From: a bacterium
GTDB taxonomy: Bacteria; Desulfobacterota; Binatia; DP-6
Direction of reading: 5' to 3'
DNA: 64,000 bases
Assembly (NCBI GenBank): GCA_026129405.1
Contig: JAHCID010000002.1
Coordinates: forward strand, 778,333 to 842,332
Under the pieces are notes generated by a model, which did no database searches, was not told the DNA's origin, and saw only the letters and a list, made by a program, of their open reading frames with translations. Made by a program: the position numbers and the translations under genes. This document shows, piece after piece, positions 4,324-62,396 of this stretch (the first letter of the stretch is position 1; every line of letters begins with the position of its first letter).

Positions 4324-5778
4324 TCAGGAGCCGCCGCCGAAGATGCAGAGGCAGTCTTCGTTGCAGTAGCCGTCCGGCCCGCACGCGGCGCCCGGCGGAT
4401 CGCACTCCTCGGGGAACTCGACCTTCTCGTTGCCGCAGATCGCGACCGGCATCGTCGTCGTGGTCGTCGTCGGCGGCAGCGGCACGGTCGTCGTCGACGT
4501 GGCCAGGGTCGGGACGGTCGTCGACGAGGTCGTGGTGGTCGTCTCGGTGGTCGACGTCGTGCTGGTCGTCGTGGTCGTCGTCACCGGCGGCGCGGTGGTC
4601 GTGGTCGTCGGCTCGGTCGACGTGGTCGAGGACGACGTCGTGGTGGTCGTCGGCTCGGTGGTCGTGGTCGAGGACGACGTCGTGGTGGTCGTCGGCTCGG
4701 TCGACGTGGTCGAGGACGACGTCGTGGTGGTCGTCGGCTCGGTGGTCGTGGTCGAGGACGACGTCGTGGTGGTCGTCGGCTCCGTCGTCGTGGTCGTGGA
4801 CGTCGTGGACGTCGTCGTCGACGAGGTCGTCGGTACCGACGTCGTGCTGCTCGACGAGGTGGTCGTGGTGGCGCCGATGGCGCGGCAGCTCGCGTCGCAG
4901 GTGACGCCGTCCGGCGGGTCGCACTGCTCGCCCGTCTCGACGATGCCGTTGCCGCAGTCGCCGCGCGAGAAGCTCGTGGAGTGGTCGGTGTTGACCGTCT
5001 TGGCGACGAACTGGCCGATGCCCTGGAAGTTGCGGCCGAAGGAGGCGCGCGCGTTCGGGGCATAGAGCTTGAGCGACGCGCGGGCGGCCGAGCCGAAGCG
5101 GGCGACGCGCCCGCCCACGTTGACGACGATCCCCTCCGCGGTGATCGTGCCGCTCGCCGGCCCGAAGACCGAGCCGTTCCCCATGCGCAGCGTCTGCTGG
5201 ACGTTGAGCGTCGCGGGGCCGCTCACGAGGATGGACGCGCCCTTCGCGGCGGTGATGGTGTGGAACTCGTAGGTGCCGGCCGAGAGCTCGAGGCGGCCGC
5301 CGGATCGGACGGTGACGTTGCCGTAGGTGCCGGGCGGCAGCGCCTGCTGGCCCATGACCACCACCGACACGCCCGACGGCGCGAACGCCGGCAGCGGCGG
5401 GAGCGGATCGACCAGCGGCAGCGGCCCGGTCGGCAGCGGCCCGACGCCGTTCACGACGAGGCCCGCCGGCGGCGACAGGTGGCGGTTGGTGTAGAAGTCG
5501 TAGACGGTGACGCGGTCCGCGCGCGCCCAGTCGCCGACCAGCGTGGTGCCGTTCGCGAAGGTGCTGCCGCGGCCGATGACGAGCGCCAGCCGCACGGCGC
5601 CGTTGACGCCGACGTCGCCCGAGCGCACGGTCGCGAGGTCCTTCAGGTGCACGCGCTCCAGGCCCATGACGACGTAGTCGTCGAGCGTGTGCGACGGAGC
5701 CGCGCAGGCCACGCGCGCCGTCGTGCCGATCACGAGCCCGATCAGGGCCACGAGTGTGCACCGCATCCCCATCCGCAT
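4324..5778 (-). CDS. Secreted protein with Myxococcus-type Cys repeats and Thr-rich linker
   Basis: A 484-residue exported protein. I chose the ATG at 5778 because GGAGG lies about 8 nt upstream; longer starts also exist. The signal peptide is MRMGMRCTLVALIGLVIG followed by TTARVACA. The body (about 30-270) is rich in short beta-strand-like segments. Next is a CGNGIVETGEQCD motif of the Myxococcus Cys-rich repeat type, then about 110 residues of almost pure Thr/Ser with EP spacers, and a second CGNEKVEFPEECD motif near the C-terminus with DGYCNEDCLC. It is likely surface-exposed or extracellular, with the Thr-rich part acting as a stalk or O-glycosylated linker (inference). Enzymatic function is unknown. 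A strong hairpin follows the stop. Confidence 0.8.
   Translation of the reverse strand: MRMGMRCTLVALIGLVIGTTARVACAAPSHTLDDYVVMGLERVHLKDLATVRSGDVGVNGAVRLALVIGRGSTFANGTTLVGDWARADRVTVYDFYTNRHLSPPAGLVVNGVGPLPTGPLPLVDPLPPLPAFAPSGVSVVVMGQQALPPGTYGNVTVRSGGRLELSAGTYEFHTITAAKGASILVSGPATLNVQQTLRMGNGSVFGPASGTITAEGIVVNVGGRVARFGSAARASLKLYAPNARASFGRNFQGIGQFVAKTVNTDHSTSFSRGDCGNGIVETGEQCDPPDGVTCDASCRAIGATTTTSSSSTTSVPTTSSTTTSTTSTTTTTEPTTTTTSSSTTTTEPTTTTTSSSTTSTEPTTTTTSSSTTTTEPTTTTTSSSTTSTEPTTTTTAPPVTTTTTTSTTSTTETTTTTSSTTVPTLATSTTTVPLPPTTTTTTMPVAICGNEKVEFPEECDPPGAACGPDGYCNEDCLCIFGGGS
4610..4777. repeat. Four tandem 42-bp units encoding a Thr/Ser-Glu-Pro linker
   Basis: Units begin at 4610, 4652, 4694 and 4736, each 42 bp (14 codons). 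They alternate between two forms (TTTTEP and TTSTEP), so there is an 84-bp higher-order period. The units lie inside the Thr-rich linker of the secreted protein, and a change in copy number would keep the reading frame. A degenerate continuation extends to about 4830. Confidence 0.9.
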
Positions 5779-6825: not shown

Positions 6826-7320
6826 TCAGCGTCCCATGACGTGCGCCTGCGCGAGCAGGCGCGTCGCCTCGAGCTGGACGTGCGGGTCGGCGGAGAGGCG
6901 CAGCGCCGCCGCTGCCAGCTCGCGCACGTGGGCGGCTTCTGCCGCCGGCGGAACGCCCGCGGCCACGGCGGTGGCCGCCTGTCGCATGGCGTCGATCTCG
7001 CTGCCCTCGAGGGCGAGCGCGGCCGAGAGCTGCGCGTCGAGGCCGGCGTCGGCACCGAGCGCTTCCGCCGCGGCGAGCCGTCCCTCGATCTCGGCGAGCG
7101 CCTCGGCCCAGCCGTCGACGCGGGTGCGCCGCGCCGCCGAGAAGGACAGCTGCGCGCGGGCGCTGCGTACGGCCTCGGCGTGGCCCGTCTCTTCCGCCGC
7201 CAGCTGCGCCCAGAAGCCGGCCAGCGCGGCGTCGGACGCGCCCGCGGCGAAGCGCGCGTAGAGCCGCTGCGCACGCTCCTCGAGCGCCACGGATCGATCG
7301 AGCAGGTCGCCGAGCAGCAT
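6826..7320 (-). CDS. Ferritin-like/rubrerythrin-type four-helix protein
   Basis: A 164-residue, all-helical protein, MLLGDLLDRSVALEERAQRLYARFA at the start, followed by AQLAAEETGHAEAV. The ExxxxxxY...EExxH spacing is that of ferritin-like di-iron proteins. The second half (IEGRLAAAE..., LALEGSEIDAM) gives the second helical hairpin, but a clean second ExxH is not obvious, so di-iron binding may be incomplete. It probably protects against peroxide or iron stress (inference). I chose the ATG at 7320 because the upstream extension is low-complexity. A weak -24/-12-like element lies 13 bp upstream. Confidence 0.65.
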   Translation of the reverse strand: MLLGDLLDRSVALEERAQRLYARFAAGASDAALAGFWAQLAAEETGHAEAVRSARAQLSFSAARRTRVDGWAEALAEIEGRLAAAEALGADAGLDAQLSAALALEGSEIDAMRQAATAVAAGVPPAAEAAHVRELAAAALRLSADPHVQLEATRLLAQAHVMGR

Positions 7321-7333
7321 GCCCTCGCCGGGT

Positions 7334-7348
7334 GCAAGGGGCCGTCCA
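7334..7348 (-). promoter_or_regulatory. Weak sigma-54-like -24/-12 element before the ferritin-like gene
   Basis: The minus strand reads TGGACGGCCCCTTGC, with GG and GC separated by 10 bp and a perfect TTGC half. The -24 half is imperfect. Only 13 bp separate it from the ATG at 7320. Confidence 0.3.
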
Positions 7349-7453
7349 CCGCGGGCGCAAGACCCGGCGGGTGCGGGTTCTCGCCTACGGGAGTCCGTGC
7401 GGCGGTCCGTCCGAGGGGTGGGAACGCGCGGCACGCCGTCGTGGCGGGGCGCG

Positions 7454-7468
7454 CGGCACGGGTCCTGC
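7454..7468 (+). promoter_or_regulatory. Candidate sigma-54-like element before the first cytochrome c gene
   Basis: The element reads CGGCACGGGTCCTGC, GG-N10-GC spacing with a good GGCACG half and a CTGC half. It ends 31 bp before the ATG at 7500, which has AAGGAGGA as ribosome binding site. Confidence 0.35.
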
Positions 7469-7499
7469 TCGTGCGACGCCGCAAGGAGGAACTCCATCG

Positions 7500-7937
7500 A
7501 TGGTTTCGACGCGCACGCTCCGTCACGCCGCTCCCGCCGCCGCGCTGCTCGCGCTGCTCGCGGCCACATCGTCCACCCGCGCCGCCGAGCCCGACGAAAC
7601 GCCGGCCCGCGCCATGTACCTGCGCTACTGCGCCGCCTGCCACGGTCCCGCCGGCAAAGGCGACGGCATCGCCGGCAGCCTGATGCAGCCGAAGCCGCCG
7701 GATATCACCGGGATCGCCAAGGCGAACGGCGGCGAGTTCCCGTTCCAGCGGATCGCGGCGTACATCGACGGCACCTCGAGCGTCCGCGCCCACGGCGACT
7801 CGGCGATGCCGGTCTGGGGCGAGACCTTCCGCCAGCAGCCGGGCTGGGAGATGAGCCGCCGCGTCGAGGTGCAGGGAAAGGTCCTGCTCATCACCGACTA
7901 CGTGCGCTCGCTGCAGACACCCGCCGCCGCGCCGTGA
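7500..7937 (+). CDS. Periplasmic c-type cytochrome
   Basis: A 145-residue exported cytochrome. The N-terminus MVSTRTLRHAAPAAALLALL ending in TRAAEP is a Sec signal peptide. One haem site, CAACH, is near residue 40 (MYLRYCAACHGPAGKGDG), and PKPPDI and the later Met-containing SAMPVWG segment could supply the axial Met. The fold is a small monohaem class I cytochrome. The ribosome binding site AAGGAGGA at 7483-7490 fixes the start. It probably shuttles electrons in the periplasm; its partner is not identified in the window. Confidence 0.85.
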   Translation: MVSTRTLRHAAPAAALLALLAATSSTRAAEPDETPARAMYLRYCAACHGPAGKGDGIAGSLMQPKPPDITGIAKANGGEFPFQRIAAYIDGTSSVRAHGDSAMPVWGETFRQQPGWEMSRRVEVQGKVLLITDYVRSLQTPAAAP

Positions 7938-8113
7938 TCCTCTCGCTCACCTCCAACCCGGCGTCGACGAGACGCTCTGCCTCGGCGGTCCCACCGCCGC
8001 GGCGAGACGCTGCGCCGCGGCCTCGGCGCCGCGCGTGGGAATCGGCGATTCTCGCCCTTGGCAGCGCTGGGAATGGACGCCGGCCGCATGCCGATGGGCC
8101 GGCGTCGGGGTTT

Positions 8114-8128
8114 CGGCATGCCGTTTGC
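8114..8128 (+). promoter_or_regulatory. Candidate sigma-54-like element before a CBS-pair gene
   Basis: The element reads CGGCATGCCGTTTGC, with a perfect TTGC half and GG-N10-GC spacing. It ends 12 bp before the ATG at 8141, so a transcript from it would be almost leaderless. Confidence 0.4.
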
Positions 8129-8140
8129 GGCGACCGGCGC

Positions 8141-8566
8141 ATGCGAATCGAACCCTGGATGAAGCACCCGGTCGTCAGCGTGAAGCCGCACGATTCCGCC
8201 GCGCATGCCCGCACCGTCATGGCTCGGCACCGCATCAACCAGCTGCCGGTGGTGACCGACGGCCGCCTGGTCGGCATCGTGACCGATCGCGACCTGCGCG
8301 ACGCCTTTCCGTCCGTCTTCGAGCTCGCGGCGGGCGGCGGGCCGAGCGCCGACCCGGAGACGATCCCGGTGGAAGACCTGATGGCGACCACGGTCGTCAC
8401 GCTCCCGCCCGACGCTCAGGTTGCCGACGCCGCCCGGATCATGCGCCGCGAGCGCATCGGCGCGATGCCCATCGTCGCCGGGGGGCGCCTGGTCGGCATG
8501 CTGACCCGCAGCGACGTGCTCGACGCCTTCGTGGAGCTGAGCCGGCCCGGGACGCCGACCGGATGA
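8141..8566 (+). CDS. CBS-domain pair protein
   Basis: A 141-residue protein made of two CBS motifs: MRIEPWMKHPVVSVKPHD...HRINQLPVVTDGRLVGIVTDRDL, then EDLMATTVVTLPPDA...ERIGAMPIVAGGRLVGMLTRSDVL. Stand-alone CBS pairs (Bateman modules) bind adenine nucleotides and act as energy or stress sensors; no effector domain is attached. It is one of two such proteins in this cluster. The start MRIEPWM fits the family. Confidence 0.9.
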   Translation: MRIEPWMKHPVVSVKPHDSAAHARTVMARHRINQLPVVTDGRLVGIVTDRDLRDAFPSVFELAAGGGPSADPETIPVEDLMATTVVTLPPDAQVADAARIMRRERIGAMPIVAGGRLVGMLTRSDVLDAFVELSRPGTPTG

Positions 8567-8710
8567 CGCCCGCGTCCGCTACGTGAATCACCGTGTGCAC
8601 GGACGGGCCCGTGTGCACGTCGGCCGGGCTCGCGCGGCTGCCCGACGCGTTCGGCGCGGACGGATCGGCCGCGCCGCTCGCGTATCGACGCCGATCCGGG
8701 GAGGTCGTCG

Positions 8711-8992
8711 ATGATCCGCGTGCTGATCGAACGGCGTGTCCGGCGGGGCCGGGGACCGGCCTACGAGCATCTCCAGCGCGAGCTGCGCTTCGAGGCCCTG
8801 CGGGAGCACGGCTATCTCACCGGCGAGACCTGGCGGGACCTCGACGATCCCGACCACTACGTCGTGATCTCGACCTGGCGCCACCGCGCGGACTGGGAGG
8901 GGTGGGTGGCGGCGCCGGCGCGGCAGGCGGTGCTCGAGCGGCTGTCGTCGCTGGTCGAGTCGGAGCGCATCACGCTCTACGAGCACGTCTGA
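8711..8992 (+). CDS. Small ABM-family (antibiotic biosynthesis monooxygenase-like) protein
   Basis: A 93-residue dimeric alpha-beta barrel protein of the ABM type: MIRVLIERRVRRG, then TGETWRDLDDPDHYVVISTW and a C-terminal SERITLYEHV. GGGGAGG precedes the start. ABM proteins are small oxygenases or haem-degrading or unknown enzymes; the substrate cannot be read from the sequence. It lies in the same direction as the neighbouring stress genes. Confidence 0.75.
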   Translation: MIRVLIERRVRRGRGPAYEHLQRELRFEALREHGYLTGETWRDLDDPDHYVVISTWRHRADWEGWVAAPARQAVLERLSSLVESERITLYEHV

Positions 8993-9215
8993 GCGGCGCG
9001 CTCGGATGCGGATGATGGCGCCGCACCGAGATCGCATTGGCGCTCCTCGGAGCGTCGCACGGCGCGCGCTACCGCACGCGGGAAAGGGACGGGCTCGCCG
9101 AACCGGCCGCAGATCTCGCCCGGTGCGGCCGATCGCCGCGGTCGCACGTCGTGCGCGACGAGGGGGGCGGATCGCGGCTTTCGGAAGCTCCGCCGCCGTT
9201 TCCACGCCGGAATCT

Positions 9216-9230
9216 TGGCAGGAGATTTGC
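9216..9230 (+). promoter_or_regulatory. Sigma-54-type -24/-12 promoter of hsp20
   Basis: The element reads TGGCAGGAGATTTGC, matching the consensus TGGCACG-N4-TTGC at all but one of the 11 defined positions. It lies 31 bp before the hsp20 ATG, leaving room for a start site and a GAAAGGAGG ribosome binding site. Confidence 0.6.
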
Positions 9231-9261
9231 GACCGGTATGGGTCGAGAAAGGAGGCCTGCC

Positions 9262-9699
9262 ATGAGAGCCCTCACGACCTGGCGCCCGTTCCCCATGCTG
9301 GGGCGGCGCGACGACCTGTTCGAGGATTTCTTGCGCGACACGTTCCGCTTCGGCGAGGCCGGGGCGGGGCTGCTCGAGCCGGCGGCGGAGATCGCCGAGT
9401 CGCACGGTGAGATCACGGTCAAGCTGGAGGTTCCCGGCGTCGACAAGAAGGACCTCCACGTCTCGGTCACCGACGACGCGATCACCGTGCGCGGCGAGAC
9501 CCGCAAGGAGCGCGAGGAGACGAAGCGGAGCTTCTATCGCCAGGAGATCCGCTACGGCGCCTTCCAGCGCTCGATGCCCCTGCCGGCCGAGGTCGACGCC
9601 GACAAGGCGGCGGCGACGCTCGAGAACGGCATGCTCACCATCACCATCCCGAAGATGGCGGCGGGCAAGGCGAAGCATCTGGACATCCCGGTCGCCTGA
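9262..9699 (+). CDS. Small heat-shock protein, Hsp20/alpha-crystallin family
   Basis: This 145-residue chaperone has a WRPFPML...RRDDLFEDF N-terminal arm, an alpha-crystallin domain from about 43 (AAEIAESHGEITVKLEVPGV) to about 130 (LENGMLTITIPK), and the typical A-x-x-x-n-G-v-L motif. It should form oligomers that hold unfolding proteins. It starts at 9262 because GAAAGGAGG lies just upstream. It is followed 23 bp later by a CBS-pair gene, probably in one transcript. Confidence 0.92.
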   Translation: MRALTTWRPFPMLGRRDDLFEDFLRDTFRFGEAGAGLLEPAAEIAESHGEITVKLEVPGVDKKDLHVSVTDDAITVRGETRKEREETKRSFYRQEIRYGAFQRSMPLPAEVDADKAAATLENGMLTITIPKMAAGKAKHLDIPVA

Positions 9700-9722
9700 C
9701 CGGGCCTCGGCGAAGGAGAGCC

Positions 9723-10205
9723 ATGATGAAAGTCGAGCAGCTGATGCAGCGCCCGGTGCACACGTGCCGAGCGGACGACACCATCAACCATGCGGTGCAG
9801 ATCATGTGGGAGCAGGACTGCGGCTGCATTCCCGTGGTCGACGAGGAGCGGCATCCGATCGGCATGATCACCGACCGGGATGCCTGCATGGCCGCCTACA
9901 CGCAGGGCCGGACGCTGTCGTCTCTGCCGGTCGGCGCGGCCATGGCGCGCCACGTACACGCCTGTCGGACGGGCGACACGTTGGCCGAGGCGGAGCGGAT
10001 CATGCGCCTGGCGCAGGTGCGACGTCTCCCGGTCGTGGACGCGGCGAACGTGCTCGTCGGCATCCTGTCGCTGAACGATCTCGCGCAGGAGGTGCGGCGC
10101 GAAGCGGGCGCCGCACGGCACGAGCTCGGCTGCGAAGAGGTGGCCGACACGCTCGGAGCGGTGTGCGCGCCGCGGCGTGCGCACCAGCTGGCGACGGCGG
10201 CCTGA
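9723..10205 (+). CDS. CBS-domain pair protein downstream of hsp20
   Basis: A 160-residue Bateman module: MKVEQLMQRPVHTCRADDT...DCGCIPVVDEERHPIGMITDRDACM, then HVHACRTGDTLAEAERIM...VRRLPVVDAANVLVGILSLNDLA. An A-rich tail of about 30 residues follows. Such proteins bind adenosine ligands. GAAGGAGAG precedes the ATG. Position and spacing indicate co-transcription with hsp20. Confidence 0.9.
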   Translation: MMKVEQLMQRPVHTCRADDTINHAVQIMWEQDCGCIPVVDEERHPIGMITDRDACMAAYTQGRTLSSLPVGAAMARHVHACRTGDTLAEAERIMRLAQVRRLPVVDAANVLVGILSLNDLAQEVRREAGAARHELGCEEVADTLGAVCAPRRAHQLATAA

Positions 10206-10237
10206 CCTCCGCCGGCGTAGATGGCGAGGCGCTCCCC

Positions 10238-10281
10238 GACCGGACAGACGCGGCTTGCCCGCGGGCCGCGTCTGTCCGGTC
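10238..10281. terminator. 16-bp perfect hairpin after the hsp20-CBS pair
   Basis: The arms are 10238-10253 and 10266-10281 with a 12-nt loop. It lies 33 bp after the CBS gene stop in the 245-bp gap before the next cytochrome gene. There is no U-tract. It is a terminator or an RNA-stabilising hairpin; nothing else is seen in the gap. Confidence 0.6.
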
Positions 10282-10450
10282 GAGCTCGAGCGGGACGCCC
10301 GGTGCGAGGGTGCCGAGCTCCAGCCGGCCGCCGGCATCGCCGAGGGGGCGGGTTTCGCCTACAAAGATCTGGCGGCCTTCGACGTGCCCGGCCGGGCCTC
10401 TCGCGCAAGGCCGTGTCGTCGACGCCGATCGGTGACATCGAGAGCCAGCC

Positions 10451-10783
10451 GTGAGTCGAATCCCCGGAACCGCCGCAGTCGCCCTGATCGCGCTCTTCGT
10501 CACCGCCACCGTTGCCGCCGAGCCGGACGGGTCCGCGGTCTTCCAGCGCCACTGCGCGACCTGTCACGGAGCGTCCGGCCGCACCGACACGCCCCATGCC
10601 CGCGCGCTCAAGGTCCGACCGCTGGCCGACGATCCGACGCTCGCCGGCATGGATGTCGTCGCGATCGTGGAGGCCATCCGCTCGAACCCGAAGCACCAGG
10701 GCATCGGCGCGCTCACCGACCTCGACGCCGCACGGCTCACGGCAGCGGCGGAATACGTGCGCACGCTCGCCCGCGGCCGCTGA
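10451..10783 (+). CDS. Small periplasmic c-type cytochrome
   Basis: A 110-residue exported protein starting at GTG 10451. The signal peptide is MSRIPGTAAVALIALFVTATVAA. A single haem site CATCH (FQRHCATCHGASGRTDT) follows. The remainder is helical (VVAIVEAIRSNPKHQG...AAEYVRTLARGR); an axial Met may come from LAGMDVV. It is one of two monohaem cytochromes in the cluster; its partner is unknown. Confidence 0.8.
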   Translation: MSRIPGTAAVALIALFVTATVAAEPDGSAVFQRHCATCHGASGRTDTPHARALKVRPLADDPTLAGMDVVAIVEAIRSNPKHQGIGALTDLDAARLTAAAEYVRTLARGR

Positions 10784-10988
10784 GCCCGACCTCGGGGCGG
10801 CGAGGCGGCGGCACGCTCGCGCGCACACCGCCGCGGCGCGCGGCATCCCGCGCGTGCCGTGCCGGCGCTGCTCGGCGTCCCGGTCGCCTGCGCGCGACTT
10901 ACGCCGGCACGCGCCGCCGCGTGCGGCGTCCGCCGGCGGCGGGCGTGACCTCGCGGCGCCAGCGGGCGAACGGCGTGCCGTCGTCGGA

Positions 10989-11381
10989 TCAGGCGTAGGT
11001 GGCGCGGCCGCGGAACGCCTTCTCCAGCTCGCGCACGATGCGGTGGGCCAGCTTCTGCGAGGTCGTGATCACCTCGAGCGCGTCGCCGCAGCGGGTGATC
11101 GTGACGACGCGGCGCTCGGGCTGCCCGAGTGCGGCGCGCGCGGCGACGTTGCGGATGCGGGCACGCAGCGGCGTCATGTTGGCGCCGACGAAGGTGCCTT
11201 CGAGCACGATCCGCCCCTGGCCCATCTCGCGCTCGGCCTGGCGGCAGGCGGGGCAGACGTCCCAGGTGATGCGGTCGAGCAGCGTGCGTGTCATCGGCAC
11301 GCCGGTGCGCCAGACGCGGCGCTGGAGTAGAGCGCCGCACTGCTCGCAGGCGCGCGGCTCGGAGCGCCGGCCCGTCGTCAC
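10989..11381 (-). CDS. Zinc-ribbon protein of BCAM0308-like type
   Basis: A 130-residue protein with two Cys pairs, CEQCG near the N-terminus and CPACR around residue 43, forming a probable zinc ribbon. A GRIVLEGTF...IRNVAARAALGQPERR segment and a C-terminal alpha-beta part (VVTITRCGDALEVITTS..., LAHRIVRELEKAFRG) follow. The layout resembles the BCAM0308 family; function is unknown. It starts at GTG 11381, which overlaps the TGA of the upstream 30-residue ORF (GTGA), so translation is probably coupled. A shorter ATG start would lose the first Cys pair. Confidence 0.6.
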   Translation of the reverse strand: MTTGRRSEPRACEQCGALLQRRVWRTGVPMTRTLLDRITWDVCPACRQAEREMGQGRIVLEGTFVGANMTPLRARIRNVAARAALGQPERRVVTITRCGDALEVITTSQKLAHRIVRELEKAFRGRATYA

Positions 11382-11470
11382 CTCGCCGGCGTGAGCTTGC
11401 CGGCGTTCGTGCCGCGGCGGCTCAGCGCGCGGATGCGTCCCTTTCCCGGCTGCGTGGTGCTCACAGGCAT
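11378..11470 (-). CDS. Basic 30-residue ORF coupled to its neighbours
   Basis: The ORF encodes a basic 30-residue peptide that begins MPVSTTQPGKGRIRALSRRG and ends TPAR. It has its own ribosome binding site (AGGAG about 8 nt upstream), overlaps the end of the DUF2267 gene by 10 bp, and its TGA overlaps the GTG of the zinc-ribbon gene. The arrangement argues it is translated, either as a peptide or as a coupling leader. No homologue is recognised. Confidence 0.4.
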   Translation of the reverse strand: MPVSTTQPGKGRIRALSRRGTNAGKLTPAR

Positions 11471-11889
11471 GGCGGCTCTCCTGCGCCGCGGGCGTCGACC
11501 CACAGCGTCTTCAGATCCTTCGGCAAGACGCTGAACACGTCCCACGCCTCCCCCTCGAGCCCGCGCGAGCTACGCAGGAGGTGCTGGAGCGCCCCGAACA
11601 CCGCCCGGATCGCGCGCTCGGTCTCGGCGTCGTTGTGCAGCGGCACGCGCGCACGCACCCGCGCGACGAGCTCCGGGCGGTGCGTCTTCTCGATCGGCTT
11701 GCCTTCCCGTCCGGGCTCGAACCACAGGTTCTTGAGCGGCTGCGGCAGCTGCGCGGCGACGTCCGCCGCCTCCTTCTCGGGCAGGCAGTCGCGCAGCTCC
11801 TGGAACACCACGAGCGTGATCGCCTCCGCGCGGTGTTCGTCGCACCCGAGCCGGCGCCGTATCTCGGCAAAGAAGCTCCGGTCGTCCAT
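11461..11889 (-). CDS. DUF2267 protein
   Basis: A 142-residue, all-helical protein with two DUF2267-type repeats: RRRLGCDEHRAEAITLVVFQEL...AAQLPQPLKNLW and VPLHNDAETERAIRAVFGALQHLL...FSVLPKDLKTLW. GCAGGAGGAAG upstream of ATG 11889 is a strong ribosome binding site. DUF2267 proteins are uncharacterised but frequently sit among stress genes, as here. It heads a three-gene minus-strand operon and has a good -24/-12-like promoter 57 bp upstream. Confidence 0.85.
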   Translation of the reverse strand: MDDRSFFAEIRRRLGCDEHRAEAITLVVFQELRDCLPEKEAADVAAQLPQPLKNLWFEPGREGKPIEKTHRPELVARVRARVPLHNDAETERAIRAVFGALQHLLRSSRGLEGEAWDVFSVLPKDLKTLWVDARGAGEPPCL

Positions 11890-11945
11890 CGTCGTCTTCC
11901 TCCTGCGCTGGGCGGGCGACGTTCGCCCGCCTCTCTCTCGAGTGA

Positions 11946-11960
11946 GCGAACCGCGTGCCA
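11946..11960 (-). promoter_or_regulatory. Sigma-54-type -24/-12 promoter of the DUF2267 operon
   Basis: The minus strand reads TGGCACGCGGTTCGC. The -24 half is perfect (TGGCACG) and the -12 half TCGC differs at one base from TTGC. It lies 56 bp before the ATG at 11889. Confidence 0.5.
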
Positions 11961-12055
11961 GGGGGGCGGGGATGGCGGATGCGGCGCGCCTTCGCGCGGC
12001 TGGGAAGGGCGCGGGAACCGCGGCGCGGTGTCGCCGCAGGGATGCGAACGCGCCG

Positions 12056-12332
12056 TCATGTCCGCGCAGCACTCGAGCCAGCGAGCAGAGGCTCGTCGCC
12101 ACGCCGCGGCGGCCGCCGCCCCGGCAGCGCCTCGAGCCCGAGCTCCCGCTCGATCCGCTCGACGACCTTGGCGATGTAGCCGAGGTCGCAGGCGTCGGCG
12201 TCGAGCTCGACGATCGCGCGTCCGAAGGACGGCGCGCAGCTCGACATGCGCGCGACCGTCGACGACGTTGGTGCGTCGCCCGTGCCGGCTGGTGAAGTCG
12301 AAGAGCGGCCGCATCCAGTCGAGAGGGCCCAT
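12056..12332 (-). pseudogene. Frame-broken remnant resembling the N-terminal metal-binding region of a CtpI-like P-type ATPase
   Basis: One frame from ATG 12332 gives MGPLDWMRPLF...VDGRAHVELRAV. A second frame then continues FGRAIVELDADACDLGYIAKVVERIERELGLEALPG to a stop at 12056. The two pieces look like the ends of one ferredoxin-like HMA-type domain with the middle missing and the frame changed. Family assignment rests on pattern only. It could instead be two unrelated short ORFs. It lies in the 11.9-12.57 kb gap, which otherwise holds only the two promoter elements. Confidence 0.3.
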
Positions 12333-12501
12333 CGCAGTCCGTCGGGTCACGACTTCCGTGCCAGCGGTGTCGCACGGCGCGGCGTGGGTACGGGGCCTGC
12401 GCCCGTCCGCCGGCGTCGCAGATCCGAAGATCCGCCGGCGACGGCGTTGGCGGCGACGGGAACGCGGCGGCCGCTCGCCGCCCGGGTCGGAACCGATCGC
12501 C

Positions 12502-12516
12502 TGGCATGCCGCATGC
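12502..12516 (+). promoter_or_regulatory. Candidate sigma-54-like element before the coiled-coil gene
   Basis: The element reads TGGCATGCCGCATGC with GG-N10-GC spacing; it has one mismatch in each half. It lies 59 bp before ATG 12576. Confidence 0.4.
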
Positions 12517-12575
12517 TCCGCACAGGCCGGAGCGCGCGATACGCGCGAGCTCGCTGCCACGAGGAGGAGAGCATC

Positions 12576-12959
12576 ATGGGCGCCACCACCATCAGATCCG
12601 ACGCCGCAGCCGCCGTGGGGCGGCTGCGGCGCGAGGGCGAGCGGCTCGTCGGCCGTCTCCAGCGCGACGTCGGCACCTTCGCCCGGCGCGCCAGGTCGGA
12701 GATCGTGTCCGACCTGAAGACGCTCCAGAAGGATCTCCGCGGCAGCGCCACGAGTGCGATCCGCGACATCGAGGGCCGCGGCAAGCAGGCGCTTGCCTCG
12801 GTCGACGGCCGCCTCGCGGAGCTCGAGGCGCGCGTGTCGAAGCGCCTGCGCACCGCCTCGCTGCCGCAGCTGCGCGCGCTCGAGGAGCGCGTCGAGGCGC
12901 TCGAGCGCCGCAACGCCGAGCTGGAGCTGCGCCTCAACGACACCGTCGCCACCGACTGA
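12576..12959 (+). CDS. Phasin-like coiled-coil protein
   Basis: A 127-residue, almost wholly helical protein with heptad-like patterning: VGRLRREGERLVGRLQRDVGTFARRARSEI, then IEGRGKQALASVDGRLAELEARV, ending LEERVEALERRNAELELRLND. This resembles phasin or granule-associated proteins, but no PHA genes are in the window, so a general coiled-coil scaffold is equally possible. The ribosome binding site GAGGAGGAG at 12561-12569 fixes the start. A hairpin follows. Confidence 0.6.
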   Translation: MGATTIRSDAAAAVGRLRREGERLVGRLQRDVGTFARRARSEIVSDLKTLQKDLRGSATSAIRDIEGRGKQALASVDGRLAELEARVSKRLRTASLPQLRALEERVEALERRNAELELRLNDTVATD

Positions 12960-12975
12960 GCGCCGGGCGCCGCCC

Positions 12976-13015
12976 ACGCTGCCCCCACCTTCGTCGTAGG
13001 ACGTTCGGGCAGCGT
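12976..13015 (+). terminator. Hairpin after the coiled-coil gene
   Basis: Nine-bp inverted repeat ACGCTGCCC (12976-12984) / GGGCAGCGT (13007-13015) with a 22-nt loop, 17 bp after the stop. Confidence 0.4.
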
Positions 13016-13081
13016 CGGGGTGTCGGGTGCGACATCGTGCGGCGCGGCGTGATGCGAGTCGCCGTTTCGTCGGGCCATCCA

Positions 13082-13096
13082 TGGCACGCCGACTGC
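13082..13096 (+). promoter_or_regulatory. Candidate sigma-54-like element before the MqsA-like gene
   Basis: The element reads TGGCACGCCGACTGC, a perfect -24 half with CTGC instead of TTGC and GG-N10-GC spacing. It ends 13 bp before the ATG at 13110. Confidence 0.4.
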
Positions 13097-13109: not shown

Positions 13110-13712
13110 ATGTCGGAGAATCGCCAGCGGTCGGCCGCGACGTGCGGTCGTTGTCGAGGACCGCTCGAGTCGCGCCGCGTCCCGCGCTGGGCCGAGCCCG
13201 TGCTCGACCTGCCCGGCGTCGTACTGCTCGACGCCGTCGAGGCCGACGGCTGCGTGCCGTGCGACGTCTGGACGGCGCGGGTGGTGCCGAACATGACGGA
13301 CCTCGCCACCGCTGCGGCCCTCGCCCGGGTGACGTGTCGCGAGCGGCTCGACGCGGCCGCGATCCGCTTCCTGCGCGCCCAGCTCGGCCTCGGCATCGCC
13401 GAGCTCGCCGAGGCCATCGGTACGCGGCCCGAGTATCTCGCGCGGTGGGAGGCCGCGATGATCCCGATGTCCGAGTCCGCCGAGCGATTGCTGCGGGTGT
13501 TGGTGGCGCGACGGGTCCAGGCGATGCATCCCCACATCCCCGTCCGCGCGATCACGCCGTTCGCCGCCGCCACGGTTCCCCTCGATCCACCGCCGCCACG
13601 GACGGCGTCGATCGCGCTCCGGCTCGACGCGACGGCACGCCGCTGGATCCATGACGCGGCCGACCGTCTCGCGCCGGCCCGCCGCACGCTCGGAAGCCTC
13701 CGCTCGACCTGA
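13110..13712 (+). CDS. MqsA/YgiT-like zinc-finger plus helix-turn-helix protein
   Basis: A 200-residue protein with two Cys pairs (TCGRCRGPL and DGCVPCDVW) that suggest a zinc site. An Xre-type helix-turn-helix follows: LRAQLGLGIAELAEAIGTRPEYLARWEA at about 88-115. The layout is that of MqsA/YgiT antitoxins and related orphan regulators. It is longer than MqsA (131) with an unusual Pro-rich linker and basic tail. No MqsR-like toxin is adjacent, so it is either an orphan or a general regulator. It is the last gene before the tRNA-bounded island. Confidence 0.65.
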   Translation: MSENRQRSAATCGRCRGPLESRRVPRWAEPVLDLPGVVLLDAVEADGCVPCDVWTARVVPNMTDLATAAALARVTCRERLDAAAIRFLRAQLGLGIAELAEAIGTRPEYLARWEAAMIPMSESAERLLRVLVARRVQAMHPHIPVRAITPFAAATVPLDPPPPRTASIALRLDATARRWIHDAADRLAPARRTLGSLRST

Positions 13713-13824: not shown

Positions 13825-13871
13825 AGTGGAGCCGAGGGGAGTCGAACCCCCGACCTCTAGAGTGCGATTCT
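13825..13871. repeat. Left direct repeat (att-like): 3' part of tRNA-Ala
   Basis: These 47 bp are identical to 23472-23518, the 3' half of tRNA-Ala(CGC) plus the bases just past it. Similarity continues about 12 bp further left with one base missing. It is not a functional tRNA, since it ends in the anticodon loop. It marks the far end of the island. Confidence 0.85.
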
Positions 13872-13880
13872 GATCCTAGC

Positions 13881-15336
13881 CCCAATGCCAGTCACTTTGC
13901 ACGAGACCTCCGACGCTGCGGGCGGTTACGTGGATAGTTGCTCATCTTGATCTTGACGGCCCGCGGGTAGTGGCGCGGCCGCCGCTCGGGAATGACGAAG
14001 GCGGTGAGTTCGTCGAGCAGGGCGTCGAGGCGGCGCGGTAGCGTCCCCGGCGAGATGTCCCAGGCGGCCTGCCAGAAAGCCCGCACGGCCAGGAGCGCGT
14101 AGCGGTAGCTCAGGCGGCCCGGTGGGACGTCGGCGCGGGGGGCGGCGCGGCTCATGACGAGGCGGACGAGGTTGTAGGCGAGCAAGAGCCCCCAGAGTTC
14201 CTGTGCGACGCGGCCGGGGGCTTTGCTGCGCAGCGCTTCGACGCGCTCGCAGGTGTGGGTTTTGAGCTCATCGAAGGCGAGCTCGAGTTCCCAGCGCTCG
14301 TGATACAGCGCGGCGACCGCCGCGGCGGGGTGCGTCGCCGGATTGAGCAACGAGGTGAGGACCCAGTAGGGGCGGACGCCCCGGCGCCGCACCCGGACGG
14401 CCCGCACGCGCAATGTGGGCGGCAAGTCGGGATGCTTGTCGCGGGTGGCGCGACTCGGTTGCAGCTCCACGAGGTGATCGCCGGCACCGAAGCGCTCGAC
14501 CACGGTCTGCGTGAGCGCGCCCTGGCCCTCGCGGGCGCGGATGACCCAGTGCTGGTCGCGGTCCGGCAGGGCGAGGGCGTGAAAGAGCGCGTAGCCGTAG
14601 AAGCCGCGGTCGAGCACGACGACGGCATGCTCGGGCAGCGTCGCCCAGATGGGCGTCGCGAGGGCGAGCTCACTCGTCGTGTAGGGGCCGAAGGCGGCGG
14701 CCGCGAGCAGGCGAGCGCGCAGGGCGAGCAGAGTCACCAGGCGCAGCTGCGGGTATCCCGCCCCCTCGCCGTGCCGACTCGCCGGCCGTCCGAAGTGCGC
14801 GACGTTCTCCGGCGTGTCGGCGACGCGCAGGGTGGTGCCGTCGAGCCCGTAGACGGCGAGCCCGTGCCACCGATCCGCGGCGGCCGCGCCGTGCGCCCAC
14901 GCGGTCGCCGTCTGCGTGAACAAGGCGGCGAGCGGCGCCGCGCCGAGCTGGTCGCGCGCTTGGACGATGGCGCCATTGCTGATCGGTTGCCGTGCGCCGC
15001 CGGGCGTGGGCAGCACGAGATCCAGATGGTGCACGACCTGCGCGATGTTGCGATCGCGGAACAGGCCCAGGCCGATCACGAGCCAGACCACGTGCTCGGC
15101 CGGCAACTTCCGGCGGCGTACAGAGGCTGTCCCGGTCGCGGCCAGCGCGTCGGCGATCCACTGCGGATCGAGCGCCGCGCTGAACTGCTCGAAGCTCGCG
15201 GGCCGCTCACCCGCCCCCAGCAGCGTGATCTCCGCGCCTGCCGCCATCGCCCCACCTCCGGTAGGGCACTCCATCTACTCCCGGCGGACGCTGAGATCCA
15301 GAATCCGGTCACTTACGTTAAGTGACCGGCATTGCG
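13881..15336. mobile_element. Complete IS4-like insertion sequence
   Basis: The ends carry matching inverted repeats, CCCAATGCCAGTCACTT at 13881 and CGCAATGCCGGTCACTT read inward from 15336. The 6-bp direct repeat CCTAGC flanks both sides (13875-13880 and 15337-15342), the likely target duplication. Removing it joins the tRNA repeat directly to the IS1182 end. Just inside the right end, arms 15305-15314/15320-15329 form a perfect 10-bp palindrome. Confidence 0.8.
13892..15274 (-). CDS. IS4-family transposase
   Basis: A 460-residue DDE transposase. An N-terminal IS4 domain (ERPASFEQFSAALDPQWIADAL) is followed by the catalytic core: the first Asp in YGLDGTTLRVAD, the second in VVVLDRGFYGYALFH, and the Glu in the Y-R-E-K signature YHERWELELAFDELK. 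Length and motifs are intact, so the element may be active. The stop lies 11 bp inside the left end of the IS. Confidence 0.9.
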   Translation of the reverse strand: MECPTGGGAMAAGAEITLLGAGERPASFEQFSAALDPQWIADALAATGTASVRRRKLPAEHVVWLVIGLGLFRDRNIAQVVHHLDLVLPTPGGARQPISNGAIVQARDQLGAAPLAALFTQTATAWAHGAAAADRWHGLAVYGLDGTTLRVADTPENVAHFGRPASRHGEGAGYPQLRLVTLLALRARLLAAAAFGPYTTSELALATPIWATLPEHAVVVLDRGFYGYALFHALALPDRDQHWVIRAREGQGALTQTVVERFGAGDHLVELQPSRATRDKHPDLPPTLRVRAVRVRRRGVRPYWVLTSLLNPATHPAAAVAALYHERWELELAFDELKTHTCERVEALRSKAPGRVAQELWGLLLAYNLVRLVMSRAAPRADVPPGRLSYRYALLAVRAFWQAAWDISPGTLPRRLDALLDELTAFVIPERRPRHYPRAVKIKMSNYPRNRPQRRRSRAK

Positions 15337-15421
15337 CCTAGCAGGGTGCTGAAAAGCCCGCCACGCGCGCTCGACAGGCGCTGCGGTCGGATCTAAGACG
15401 GGCCGCCAAGGAGGGCGGCCG

Positions 15422-16483
15422 ATGCGGGGCGAGCGGCGCCAGCAGGTCTCGATGCTCACGTGGCTGAGCCCGGAGCGGATGGTGCCGCGTGACCATCCGG
15501 TCCGGCGGGTGAAGGCGCTGGCCGATGCCGAGCTCGTGCGGCTCTCGCCGGTGTGCGACGCACTGTCCGCGCCGCGCGGCCGGCCCTCGATTCCGCCCGA
15601 GGCGCTCCTCAAGGCGCAGCTGTTGATCGCACTCTACCGTGTGCGCAGCGAGCGGCAGTTCTGCGAGCAGCTCCAGGACAATCTGCAGTTCCGCTACTTC
15701 CTTGATCTGGGGCTGGACGAGCGGCCCTTCGACGCGACGGTCTTCGCCAAGAAGAAGGCCCGGCTGTTGGCCGCCGACGTGGCGCGGCGCTTCTTCGAGG
15801 GCGTCGTGGCGCAGGCGCGGGCGGCCCAGCTGCTCTCGAGCGAGCACTTCACCGTGGACGGCACGCACATCGAGGCCTGGGCGTCGCTCAAGAGTTTCCG
15901 GCCGAAGGCCGAGCGGCCCGAGGATCGGCCGCCGCCGGACGATCCGGGCAATCCGACGGTCAACTGGCACGGCGAGCGGTGGAGCAACGCGACGCATGCG
16001 TCGCCGACCGACCCCGCGGCGAAGCTGGCGCGCAAAGGCGCGGCCCACGCGGCGAAGCTCAGCTACTCCGCGCACGTGCTGATGGAGAATCGCCACGGGC
16101 TGTGCGTCGATCTCAGCGTGGCCGCGGCCACGGGCGAGGTGGAGTGGGAGGAAGCGCTGCGGCTGGTGCGGCGGCAACAGGCGGCGGGCCAGCGGGTGCG
16201 AACGCTCGGCGCGGACCAGGCCTACGACGGGCGCCGCTTCGTGGAGCCGCGGCGCGCGGCGGGGGTGACGCCACACGGGGCGCAGCAGATCACGCGGCAT
16301 CGCGGCTCCCACGGGGACGGCCGCGCCACGCGGCATCCGGGGTACGCCATCAGCCAACGGAAGCGGAAGCTCGTCGAAGAGATCTTCGGCTGGTGGAAGG
16401 CGGGGGGGGGGATGTGGTGTCCCCCTCGGTTTCGTACAGGTCAGGCCACTAACTGCTCGCGATACGCCTTCGGCGTGCGGTAG
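15422..16483 (+). pseudogene. IS1182-family transposase, 3' end lost
   Basis: The reading frame begins MRGERRQQVSMLTWLSPERMVP and contains LLKAQLLIALYRVRSERQFCEQL, VDGTHIEAWASLKSF and KLVEEIFGWWKA, all IS1182-like. Homology stops near 16403, where a G-run meets the end of an IS3 remnant, and the ORF then runs out through foreign sequence. The last 100 or so residues of a normal transposase are missing. The left end of the element, GGGTGCTGAAAAG, is at about 15344, right beside the IS4 copy. Confidence 0.85.
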
Positions 16484-61513: not shown

Positions 61514-61619
61514 GCACGACCGATGCCGGCTGCCTGCGCTTGCGGCCTGCGCCGCGGTGGCGCGATCGTTGCACCGAACCGCACGCGAACGACGGCAGGA
61601 GCGAAGGAGGGCAAGGATC

Positions 61620-62161
61620 ATGGAGCTGCCGCTCACGGGCATCAAGATCATCGACTTCACCGGCGTGCAGGCCGGACCCGCGTGCACGCAGCTGCTGGCA
61701 TGGTTCGGCGCCGACGTCCTCAAGGTCGAGCGGCCTCACACCGGCGACGTCACGCGCAATCAGCTGCGCGACGTCGCAGCGCCGCGGCTCTCGGCAACAG
61801 CAACACCGGCATGCACCTCGCCTCGGCATCCTCACCGCGCTGATCGGGCGTGCGAAGACCGGGAAGGGCCTGAAGGTCGCCGTGTCGATGCAGGACGCGG
61901 TGCTGAACCTGTGCCGGGTGAAGCTCCGCGACCATGAGCGGCTCGAGCACGTCGGCTACCTGGAGGAGTATCCGCAGTACCCGAAGACGCCGTTCGGCGA
62001 CGCCGTCCCGCGCGGCAGCAACGCCGGCGGCGGCCAGCCAGGCTGGATCCTCAAGTGCAAGGGCTGGCAGACCAACCCGAACGCCTACATCTACTTCTGC
62101 TTCACGATCCAGGAGCAGAGCTGGGCGCGGACCTGCGAGGCGATCGGCAAGCCGGGGTGGG
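61620..62161 (+). pseudogene. frc: Formyl-CoA:oxalate CoA-transferase (frc) remnant
   Basis: It starts [20 protein letters not shown] then [19 protein letters not shown] and VTRNQLRD, the Frc N-terminus. About 100 codons are then missing, and the frame resumes NSNTGMHLA, shifts one base, and continues [66 protein letters not shown]. It ends at EAIGKPGW, before the last third of the protein. It has a ribosome binding site (GAAGGAGGG), but cannot make active enzyme. Confidence 0.85.
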
Positions 62162-62396
62162 GTGGCGCGTGCCATCCGGGCCGCCGTATCGGGCCGTCCC
62201 GGCGGCGTGTACCCCGACCTCCCCGCCGCCGTCCTCGCGGCAACGCTCGCGGCGGCGGAGGGCGAGCGCTCGCTCGTCACCGTGGTCGACCCGGCCGCGG
62301 CAGCTTCCGCGCCGGAGGCGATCGCGCGCGCCCTCGCGCTGCTGGCCGGCGCGCAGCGACCGCTCGTCATCCTCGGCAAGGGAGCGGCCTACGCCG
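62162..62396 (+). pseudogene. oxc: Oxalyl-CoA decarboxylase (oxc) internal fragment fused to frc
   Basis: Directly after the frc remnant, in another frame: [20 protein letters not shown], then [16 protein letters not shown] and [22 protein letters not shown]. This is the segment of Oxc just after the N-terminal TPP domain. The start of oxc and all of its later domains are absent. It ends where an IS3 fragment begins. Frc and Oxc together degrade oxalate, so this is a collapsed oxalate operon. Confidence 0.8.

Follow-up and report, generated by a model that had tools for sequence, protein, structure and literature searches.

Which regulator, if any, ties together a cluster of small stress-type genes in a bacterium of the class Binatia? 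The genes lie between about 6.8 and 13.8 kb of a 64,000-bp window (contig C2, positions 778333–842332 of a 5.63-Mb genome; "the window" below), and we call this part of it the island. A sequence-only reading had proposed that seven of its genes are linked by a shared -24/-12 promoter type, the type used by sigma-54 (RpoN). In the analysis described here, six of these promoters stand up to matrix controls and five of the six have a common inverted repeat upstream. With a probability of roughly 0.7, we consider that the island belongs to the sigma-54 regulon of a two-component system composed of a globin-coupled kinase and an NtrC-type regulator, the genes of which are on a different contig of this genome.

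Probable sigma-54 promoters of the island

Sites were scored with a literature-based RpoN matrix of 17 positions at a threshold of 13 bits; gene starts were those called by our own simple gene finder. The seven 15-mers listed by the sequence-only reading are all found where it had placed them, all have the GG-N10-GC spacing, and six of the seven agree with TGGCAYG-N4-TTGC near a gene start. Nine sites of the window reach 13 bits; six of them (7454, 8114, 9216, 11946 on the minus strand, 12502 and 13082) are the strong sites of the island, and all six are intergenic, 13–59 bp ahead of a called start (Table 1). The site at 7334 on the minus strand does not reach the threshold, its score of only 8.8 bits not being outstanding. 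The shared promoter set thus holds for six genes or operons and is not confirmed for the seventh, and the caution that had been voiced about weak sites in GC-rich DNA was right in this case.

As a genome-wide control, we drew 400 kb with 362 called genes from the genome, in the form of twenty 20-kb pieces at round-number coordinates. In this sample the real matrix finds 12 upstream and 9 intragenic sites, whereas 60 column-permuted matrices find on average 0.93 upstream sites (maximum 9). Between 6.8 and 13.8 kb of the window, the real matrix finds six sites and the permuted ones a mean of 0.10, with a maximum of 1. Given the rate in the sample, six sites would fall within 5.7 kb with a Poisson probability of 3e-8, or about 3e-5 genome-wide; the clustering of the strong sites exceeds chance. 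On the other hand, the plain pattern has 35 matches in the whole genome as compared to 48 for the backward pattern. There is no excess in this count, and therefore the signal lies in the placement of the sites rather than in their raw number. The plain count is what could be expected if the sites were chance matches from a GC-rich background and no promoter set existed. This explanation is extremely improbable, considering that the six sites are intergenic and just before gene starts, that the matrix controls are far lower, and that relatives also have sites ahead of hsp20 and CBS.

The proposal of a local regulon built on one promoter type depended on an rpoN gene and an activator in the genome, and on lower scores at random upstream regions. 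The genome contains rpoN (one match) and 27 strong Sigma54_activat matches (E < 1e-30) among 32 in total, and the sampled upstream regions do score lower (12 sites for 362 genes). Together with the matrix controls, the presence of rpoN and the abundance of activator domains support such a regulon, and the sequence of the six sites indicates that they are likely true sigma-54 promoters.

Some predicted sigma-54 promoters of this genome appear to have very short leaders. In 11 of 47 distinct ones from the sampled stretches and the window, the called start codon is found 10–16 bp past the 17-mer, 13082 of the window being an example, and most of the 11 have no ribosome-binding sequence when judged by eye. 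Because the start codon falls where transcription should begin, these promoters likely yield leaderless messages. The CBS gene has an in-frame ATG at 8141, and a start there would give a nearly leaderless mRNA. Two further sites of the window, 61512 (13.4 bits) and 61558 (14.9 bits), have no called start within 600 bp; the frame 61600–62206 has a weak CoA_transf_3 match, and therefore a gene nearer to these two sites may have been missed.

Comparable promoters are present in relatives. Sites at a similar distance from hsp20 homologues were found in genomes G003 (L007, 17.4 bits), G010 (L016, 19.0 bits) and G019 (L020, 16.6 bits), and overall 5 of 30 hsp20 loci, the window included, have a same-direction site of at least 12 bits within 200 bp upstream. 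The G003 island (L036) holds hsp20, DUF2267 and CBS genes inside 5 kb, with sites ahead of hsp20 and CBS. Relatives' islands also contain genes for universal stress proteins, a pyruvate phosphate dikinase-like enzyme, cytochrome c and DksA-like proteins. Among 23 loci in named genomes, mostly with distant hsp20 genes, L147, L154 and L156 have a site 191–202 bp before the matched stretch. Two pattern searches were abandoned. A strict composite pattern matched only 1 of 395 genomes and, since it misses known sites, was judged uninformative. The pattern GCAGNNNTGRGAATCG gave 66 matches as compared to 8 for its backward form (148 genomes), but of 30 loci that were examined, no more than five have a site of at least 11 bits within 220 bp (random places: 6%); the excess is mostly unrelated to promoters, and the pattern was therefore dropped.

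The upstream dyad and its candidate activator

The six island promoters alone yielded no convincing common word. A gapped-word search was then made on eight hsp20 and CBS promoters, six of relatives and two of the window. The word GCAG-N6-GAAT occurs in five of these eight and in none of 345 background upstream regions (346 in the later comparisons). Upon refinement, the element became an inverted repeat with the consensus TCnCA-N4-TGnGAAT, hereafter the dyad. With a first matrix, made of 9 sites from three relatives, four of the six island promoters fall in about the top 2% of the 346 background regions; with a second matrix, made of 25 sites all from other genomes, five of the six do (scores and background counts in Table 1). 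None of 300 column-permuted dyad matrices places five of six in the top 2%, the maximum being two. Furthermore, when 41 other intergenic sigma-54 sites of the genome were scored, a single one reached 8.4 bits (Fisher 2e-5). The dyad of the five promoters is predicted to be the binding site of an NtrC-type activator. The HTH (helix-turn-helix) gene at 13110 may be under the control of a different one.

Each of the 27 loci with a strong activator match was inspected. At one of them, L261 on contig C6, the gene of an NtrC-type response regulator (receiver, AAA+ domain with GAFTGA, Fis-type HTH) overlaps the gene of a protoglobin-HisKA kinase, which is the only protoglobin of this genome. The sole dyad-bearing site among the 41, L261:16161, adjoins this pair. 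In the globin domain of the kinase, a His and a Tyr that we take to be heme-contact residues are preserved when it is aligned with globin sensors of solved structure. For instance, the domain matches AfGcHK (PDB 5OHE) with an E of 7.6e-12 and the aligned His and Tyr conserved. Within 10 kb of the pair we find universal stress, AAA_33 and cytochrome c genes, and the targets predicted from dyads and sites, by site prediction only, include CBS and universal-stress genes. The recognition helix of the regulator, SLSSLYRK, is absent from the 26 other activators of the genome. A candidate for autoregulation in this genome (dyad-like word at L169:1121, site-like word at 1165) was set aside because the site-like word lies within the open reading frame 1135–1668.

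The nearest activator offers a different answer: a GAF-AAA-Fis protein encoded about 17 kb upstream of the island, to the left of the window (L004:9300–10838), could run it in place of the globin-kinase pair. It is on the same contig and has three sigma-54 sites around it, ahead of hemerythrin, patatin and cNMP-binding genes. However, these three promoters lack the dyad (4.4, -1.0 and 2.3 bits), and 65% homologues of the activator occur in G001, G005 and G006, whose hsp20 matches are distant (best E 1e-6 to 7e-14). Moreover, its recognition helix differs, with 12 of 50 aligned HTH positions in common with the globin-linked regulator, and therefore it would need another, unfound site. We regard control by this activator as improbable, and favour the globin-kinase pair. 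The L004 sites are at 4449, 5961 and 10926, and homologues of its activator with about 57–66% identity are found in many genomes of the class.

Other sigma-54 groups were seen in this genome. At L002:5117–14636, superoxide dismutase, DUF1328 and BON-domain genes are near an NtrC-type regulator, and their promoters have no dyad. At L003, sites at 9195, 9526 and 13907 precede genes of proteins of 595, 1330 and 1465 amino acids, the first two of which were scanned and contain Dicty_CTDC repeats.

Dyad and regulator across the class

Of the 145 genomes of the class, 37 have a protoglobin; many of the genomes that represent the group are fragmented. At least 30 protoglobin loci were listed, and 20 were fetched with their flanks, picked by eye after a first look. 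The loci L220, L239 and L247 (refetched as L250, L264 and L266), together with L243 and L245 (unfetched), had shown the dyad before this selection. Those left out were L236, L242, L244, L245 and L248 (no kinase or regulator match), L230 (kinase only), L232 and L241 (weak regulator matches), and L238 and L243 (pair present). A promoter qualified if it scored at least 13 bits, was intergenic, lay at most 130 bp from a called start and was preceded by 130 bp of sequence.

Ten of the 20 neighbourhoods yield 20 qualifying promoters. With the 9-site matrix, a dyad of at least 13 bits is found at 10 of these 20, but only once among 110 control upstream regions taken from the loci themselves (Fisher 7e-9), and none of 200 permuted matrices reaches 10 dyad-bearing promoters. 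When the three previously seen loci are removed, the figures are 5 of 14 promoters and 1 of 95 control regions. The word TCnCA-N4-TGnGA, allowing at most one mismatch in its eight letters, is ahead of 17 of the 19 promoters outside this genome (L261 excluded), while the same half-sites at other spacers from 0 to 10 are ahead of 0–3 of the 19. Without the three previously seen loci, the word is found at 12 of 13 promoters, against 0–2 at other spacers. Among 11 sampled promoters of this genome, it is found at none.

An orthologue of the regulator is present in 19 of the 20 neighbourhoods, and the recognition helix is identical in all 19. Dyad and sigma-54 site lie together upstream of the regulator or its operon in G008 (L266), G095 (L267, site of 12.99 bits) and G036 (L271); in G034 (L273) a 20.8-bit dyad is just before the regulator, with no site at 12.5 bits. 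Of 12 genomes tested, G003, G011, G031, G034 and G036 have a regulator of at least 62% identity; in G031 the same contig carries hsp20, some 10 kb away from it. Nothing reached the cut-off in G001 and G004, and the best that G002, G005 and G006 offer is 43–48%; these five genomes of one family also lack a protoglobin and a close hsp20. In three genomes (L268:11856, L238:2870 and L243:2849), a strong sigma-54 site is located just beyond the end of the globin kinase gene and faces back toward it, with no gene called at the site of L268. Such back-facing sites possibly serve a small RNA or an antisense transcript.

Several observations weigh against assigning the island to this regulon. Half of the 20 protoglobin neighbourhoods have no qualifying promoter, and in the other half five divergent pairs share an upstream region, so that 10 of 20 amounts to about 7 of 15 independent cases. 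Among the hsp20 loci, 25 of 30 have no site of at least 12 bits within 200 bp upstream. In G010, which has an hsp20 site and a very strong dyad, protoglobin is missing and the regulator matches do not exceed 45% identity; G019 has an hsp20 site with no dyad at 11 bits beside it and no protoglobin. G034, with its 62% regulator and dyad, is outside the 37 protoglobin genomes, and the only protoglobin of G036 is short and on another contig. From the last two exceptions it follows that the sensor may vary between genomes. In the genome studied here, the operon of the pair itself has no clear promoter of the sigma-54/dyad type. As for the window, its CBS and hsp20 promoters (8114 and 9216) were in the first word-search set, the HTH promoter (13082) has no dyad, only two of the five dyads are not degenerate (the other three score 8.4–9.6 bits), and a simple letter count is indecisive, spacer 4 and spacer 7 each being found at three of six promoters. 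The last three points would also fit an arrangement in which real sigma-54 promoters are served by several activators, the likeness of the window dyads is partly coincidence and the genes are mere neighbours. We consider this arrangement unlikely, since no permuted matrix (0/300) reaches five of six and 40 of the 41 other examined sites score lower. The regulon of the globin-kinase pair remains our preferred reading.

Table 1. Features of the island and the regulator of the pair. Positions are those of the window unless a locus is named; distances run from the end of the 17-mer to the called start; second-matrix dyad scores are followed by the number of the 346 background regions that score as high.
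Feature	Position	Strand	Remarks
Rubrerythrin/ferritin-like gene	6826..7320	-	Pfam Rubrerythrin 22.5 bits, cut-off 22.8
Weak -24/-12-like site, rubrerythrin-like gene	7334..7348	-	8.8 bits; 13 bp before start 7320; doubtful by score
Dyad-like element between two divergent promoters (cytochrome c)	7410..7429	+	9.6 bits; 3/346
-24/-12 site, cytochrome c gene	7454..7468	+	13.3 bits; 31 bp
Cytochrome c gene	7500..7937	+	Pfam Cytochrom_C 24.3 bits
Best dyad of the island (CBS promoter)	8059..8078	+	20.2 bits; 0/346
-24/-12 site, CBS gene	8114..8128	+	13.9 bits; 30 bp
Gene of two-CBS-domain protein	8159..8566	+	Pfam CBS 113.7 bits
Dyad-like element, hsp20	9172..9191	+	12.6 bits; 1/346
-24/-12 site, hsp20-CBS	9216..9230	+	15.1 bits; 31 bp
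hsp20 gene	9262..9699	+	Pfam HSP20 82.9 bits
Second CBS gene	9723..10205	+	Pfam CBS 90.5 bits
DUF2267 gene	11461..11889	-	Pfam DUF2267 80.7 bits
-24/-12 site, DUF2267 gene	11946..11960	-	16.1 bits; 56 bp
Dyad-like element, DUF2267	11992..12011	+	9.4 bits; 3/346
Second dyad-like element, DUF2267 (CGCA-N4-TGCG)	12034..12053	+	9.0 bits
Weak dyad-like element, coiled-coil gene	12416..12435	+	8.4 bits; 7/346
-24/-12 site, coiled-coil gene	12502..12516	+	15.3 bits; 59 bp
Coiled-coil, phasin-like gene	12576..12959	+	Pfam Phasin 21 bits, below cut-off 28.8
-24/-12 site, HTH gene, without dyad	13082..13096	+	16.4 bits; 13 bp; dyad score -1.7, 228/346
HTH (MqsA-like) regulator gene	13110..13712	+	Pfam HTH_3 26.1 bits
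NtrC-type regulator of the pair	L261:9066-10421

The second CBS gene begins 23 bp past the end of hsp20 and is probably co-transcribed with it. Two family names given earlier are not confirmed: for the "MqsA-like" protein Pfam gives HTH domains only, and the Rubrerythrin match of the "ferritin-like" one is just under the cut-off. Downstream of the island, two transposase genes, of IS4 and DUF772 type, lie within 13892–16483. A stretch near 13830 resembling a tRNA 3' end was rejected, as no tRNA gene is recognised there.

Proposed mechanism and known systems

In the regulon proposed here, the globin domain of the kinase would bind heme and sense oxygen or redox state, as its conserved residues suggest, and the kinase would phosphorylate the regulator encoded by the overlapping gene. 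The regulator would then bind the dyads about 45–130 bp upstream of the promoters, as their co-occurrence suggests, and its GAFTGA loop would enable the sigma-54 polymerase to melt the promoters of the coiled-coil, cytochrome c, Hsp20, CBS and DUF2267 genes. Because six genes or operons share the sigma-54 pattern and five share the upstream motif, the whole island is probably switched as a unit, and oxygen or redox state is the predicted signal. Each weakly scoring promoter is a putative member of the regulon.

By gene content, the island resembles the DosR dormancy regulon of mycobacteria and the low-oxygen lxa locus of Burkholderia, which include Hsp20, universal stress and CBS proteins; these systems are not known to be sigma-54 dependent and have different regulators. 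We give about even odds to a broader view, namely that a class-wide, undescribed sigma-54 regulon does DosR-type dormancy work here: a globin-coupled oxygen kinase, paired directly with an NtrC-type activator, would control Hsp20, CBS, universal-stress, cytochrome c and DUF2267 targets through the conserved TCnCA-N4-TGnGA enhancer, several of them with leaderless messages.

Among the matches listed for literature on sigma-54 stress, dormancy or hypoxia regulons, on Binatota/Binatia and on globin-coupled kinases with NtrC, none describes such a regulon in this group in its title or opening abstract lines. Predicted sigma-54 targets across phyla include small heat-shock protein, CBS and UspA groups (PMC12316311), and stress-response enhancer-binding protein regulons are listed for Desulfovibrio vulgaris (PMC4641369). 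In their available parts, these regulons have no common dyad or globin kinase; 'Binat', 'Desulfobacterota' and 'hsp20' do not occur in PMC12316311, nor 'hsp20' or 'CBS domain' in PMC4641369. AfGcHK, the globin-coupled kinase of Anaeromyxobacter (PDB 5OHE; PMC8697598), has a related globin domain, but its target genes are unknown according to PMC11841059.

The closest counterpart is NmpRSTU of Myxococcus (PMC11841059, PMC6211767, PMC12753109). In M. xanthus, the NtrC-like NmpR acts downstream of the protoglobin kinase NmpU. It recognises GCGCA-N5-TGCGC, and its targets are CBS, universal stress, cbb3 oxidase and hemN-hemerythrin operons as well as its own; mxan_4236 is hypoxia-induced (PMC11841059). 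The system described here shares with it the NtrC-like regulator, the protoglobin kinase, sigma-54 promoters, an upstream dyad of CGCA/TGCG type and, by prediction, CBS and universal-stress targets. Autoregulation would be a further likeness, as regards the relatives whose regulators have dyad and site upstream (G008, G095 and G036). On the other hand, the spacer is 5 in the NmpR consensus and 4 in our dyad: GCGCA-N5-TGCGC is not enriched (4 of the 19 promoters, other spacers 1–6), and TCnCA/TGnGA half-sites at spacer 5 are found at none of the 19. Signalling in Myxococcus is relayed through the hybrid kinase NmpS, whereas here the regulator and globin kinase genes overlap. No NmpS/NmpT-type relay kinase was found beside the pair in eight further L261 proteins scanned (21 genes called), and the globin kinase is the single kinase match among all called genes of the fetched 20 kb. 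Hsp20 and DUF2267 are not among the NmpR targets in the available part of PMC11841059, and 'heat shock' is absent from its main text. Judged by analogy, the system works like NmpRSTU, but we do not count it as a member because the spacer differs and no relay kinase was found beside the pair. An island otherwise annotated as unrelated small genes thereby gains a likely activator, a likely DNA site and a likely input signal, and the proposed regulon offers a directly testable 20-bp site and protein pair. Finally, it suggests that CBS/Usp/Hsp20 stress responses are run more widely by globin-kinase/NtrC switches of the kind described in Myxococcus.

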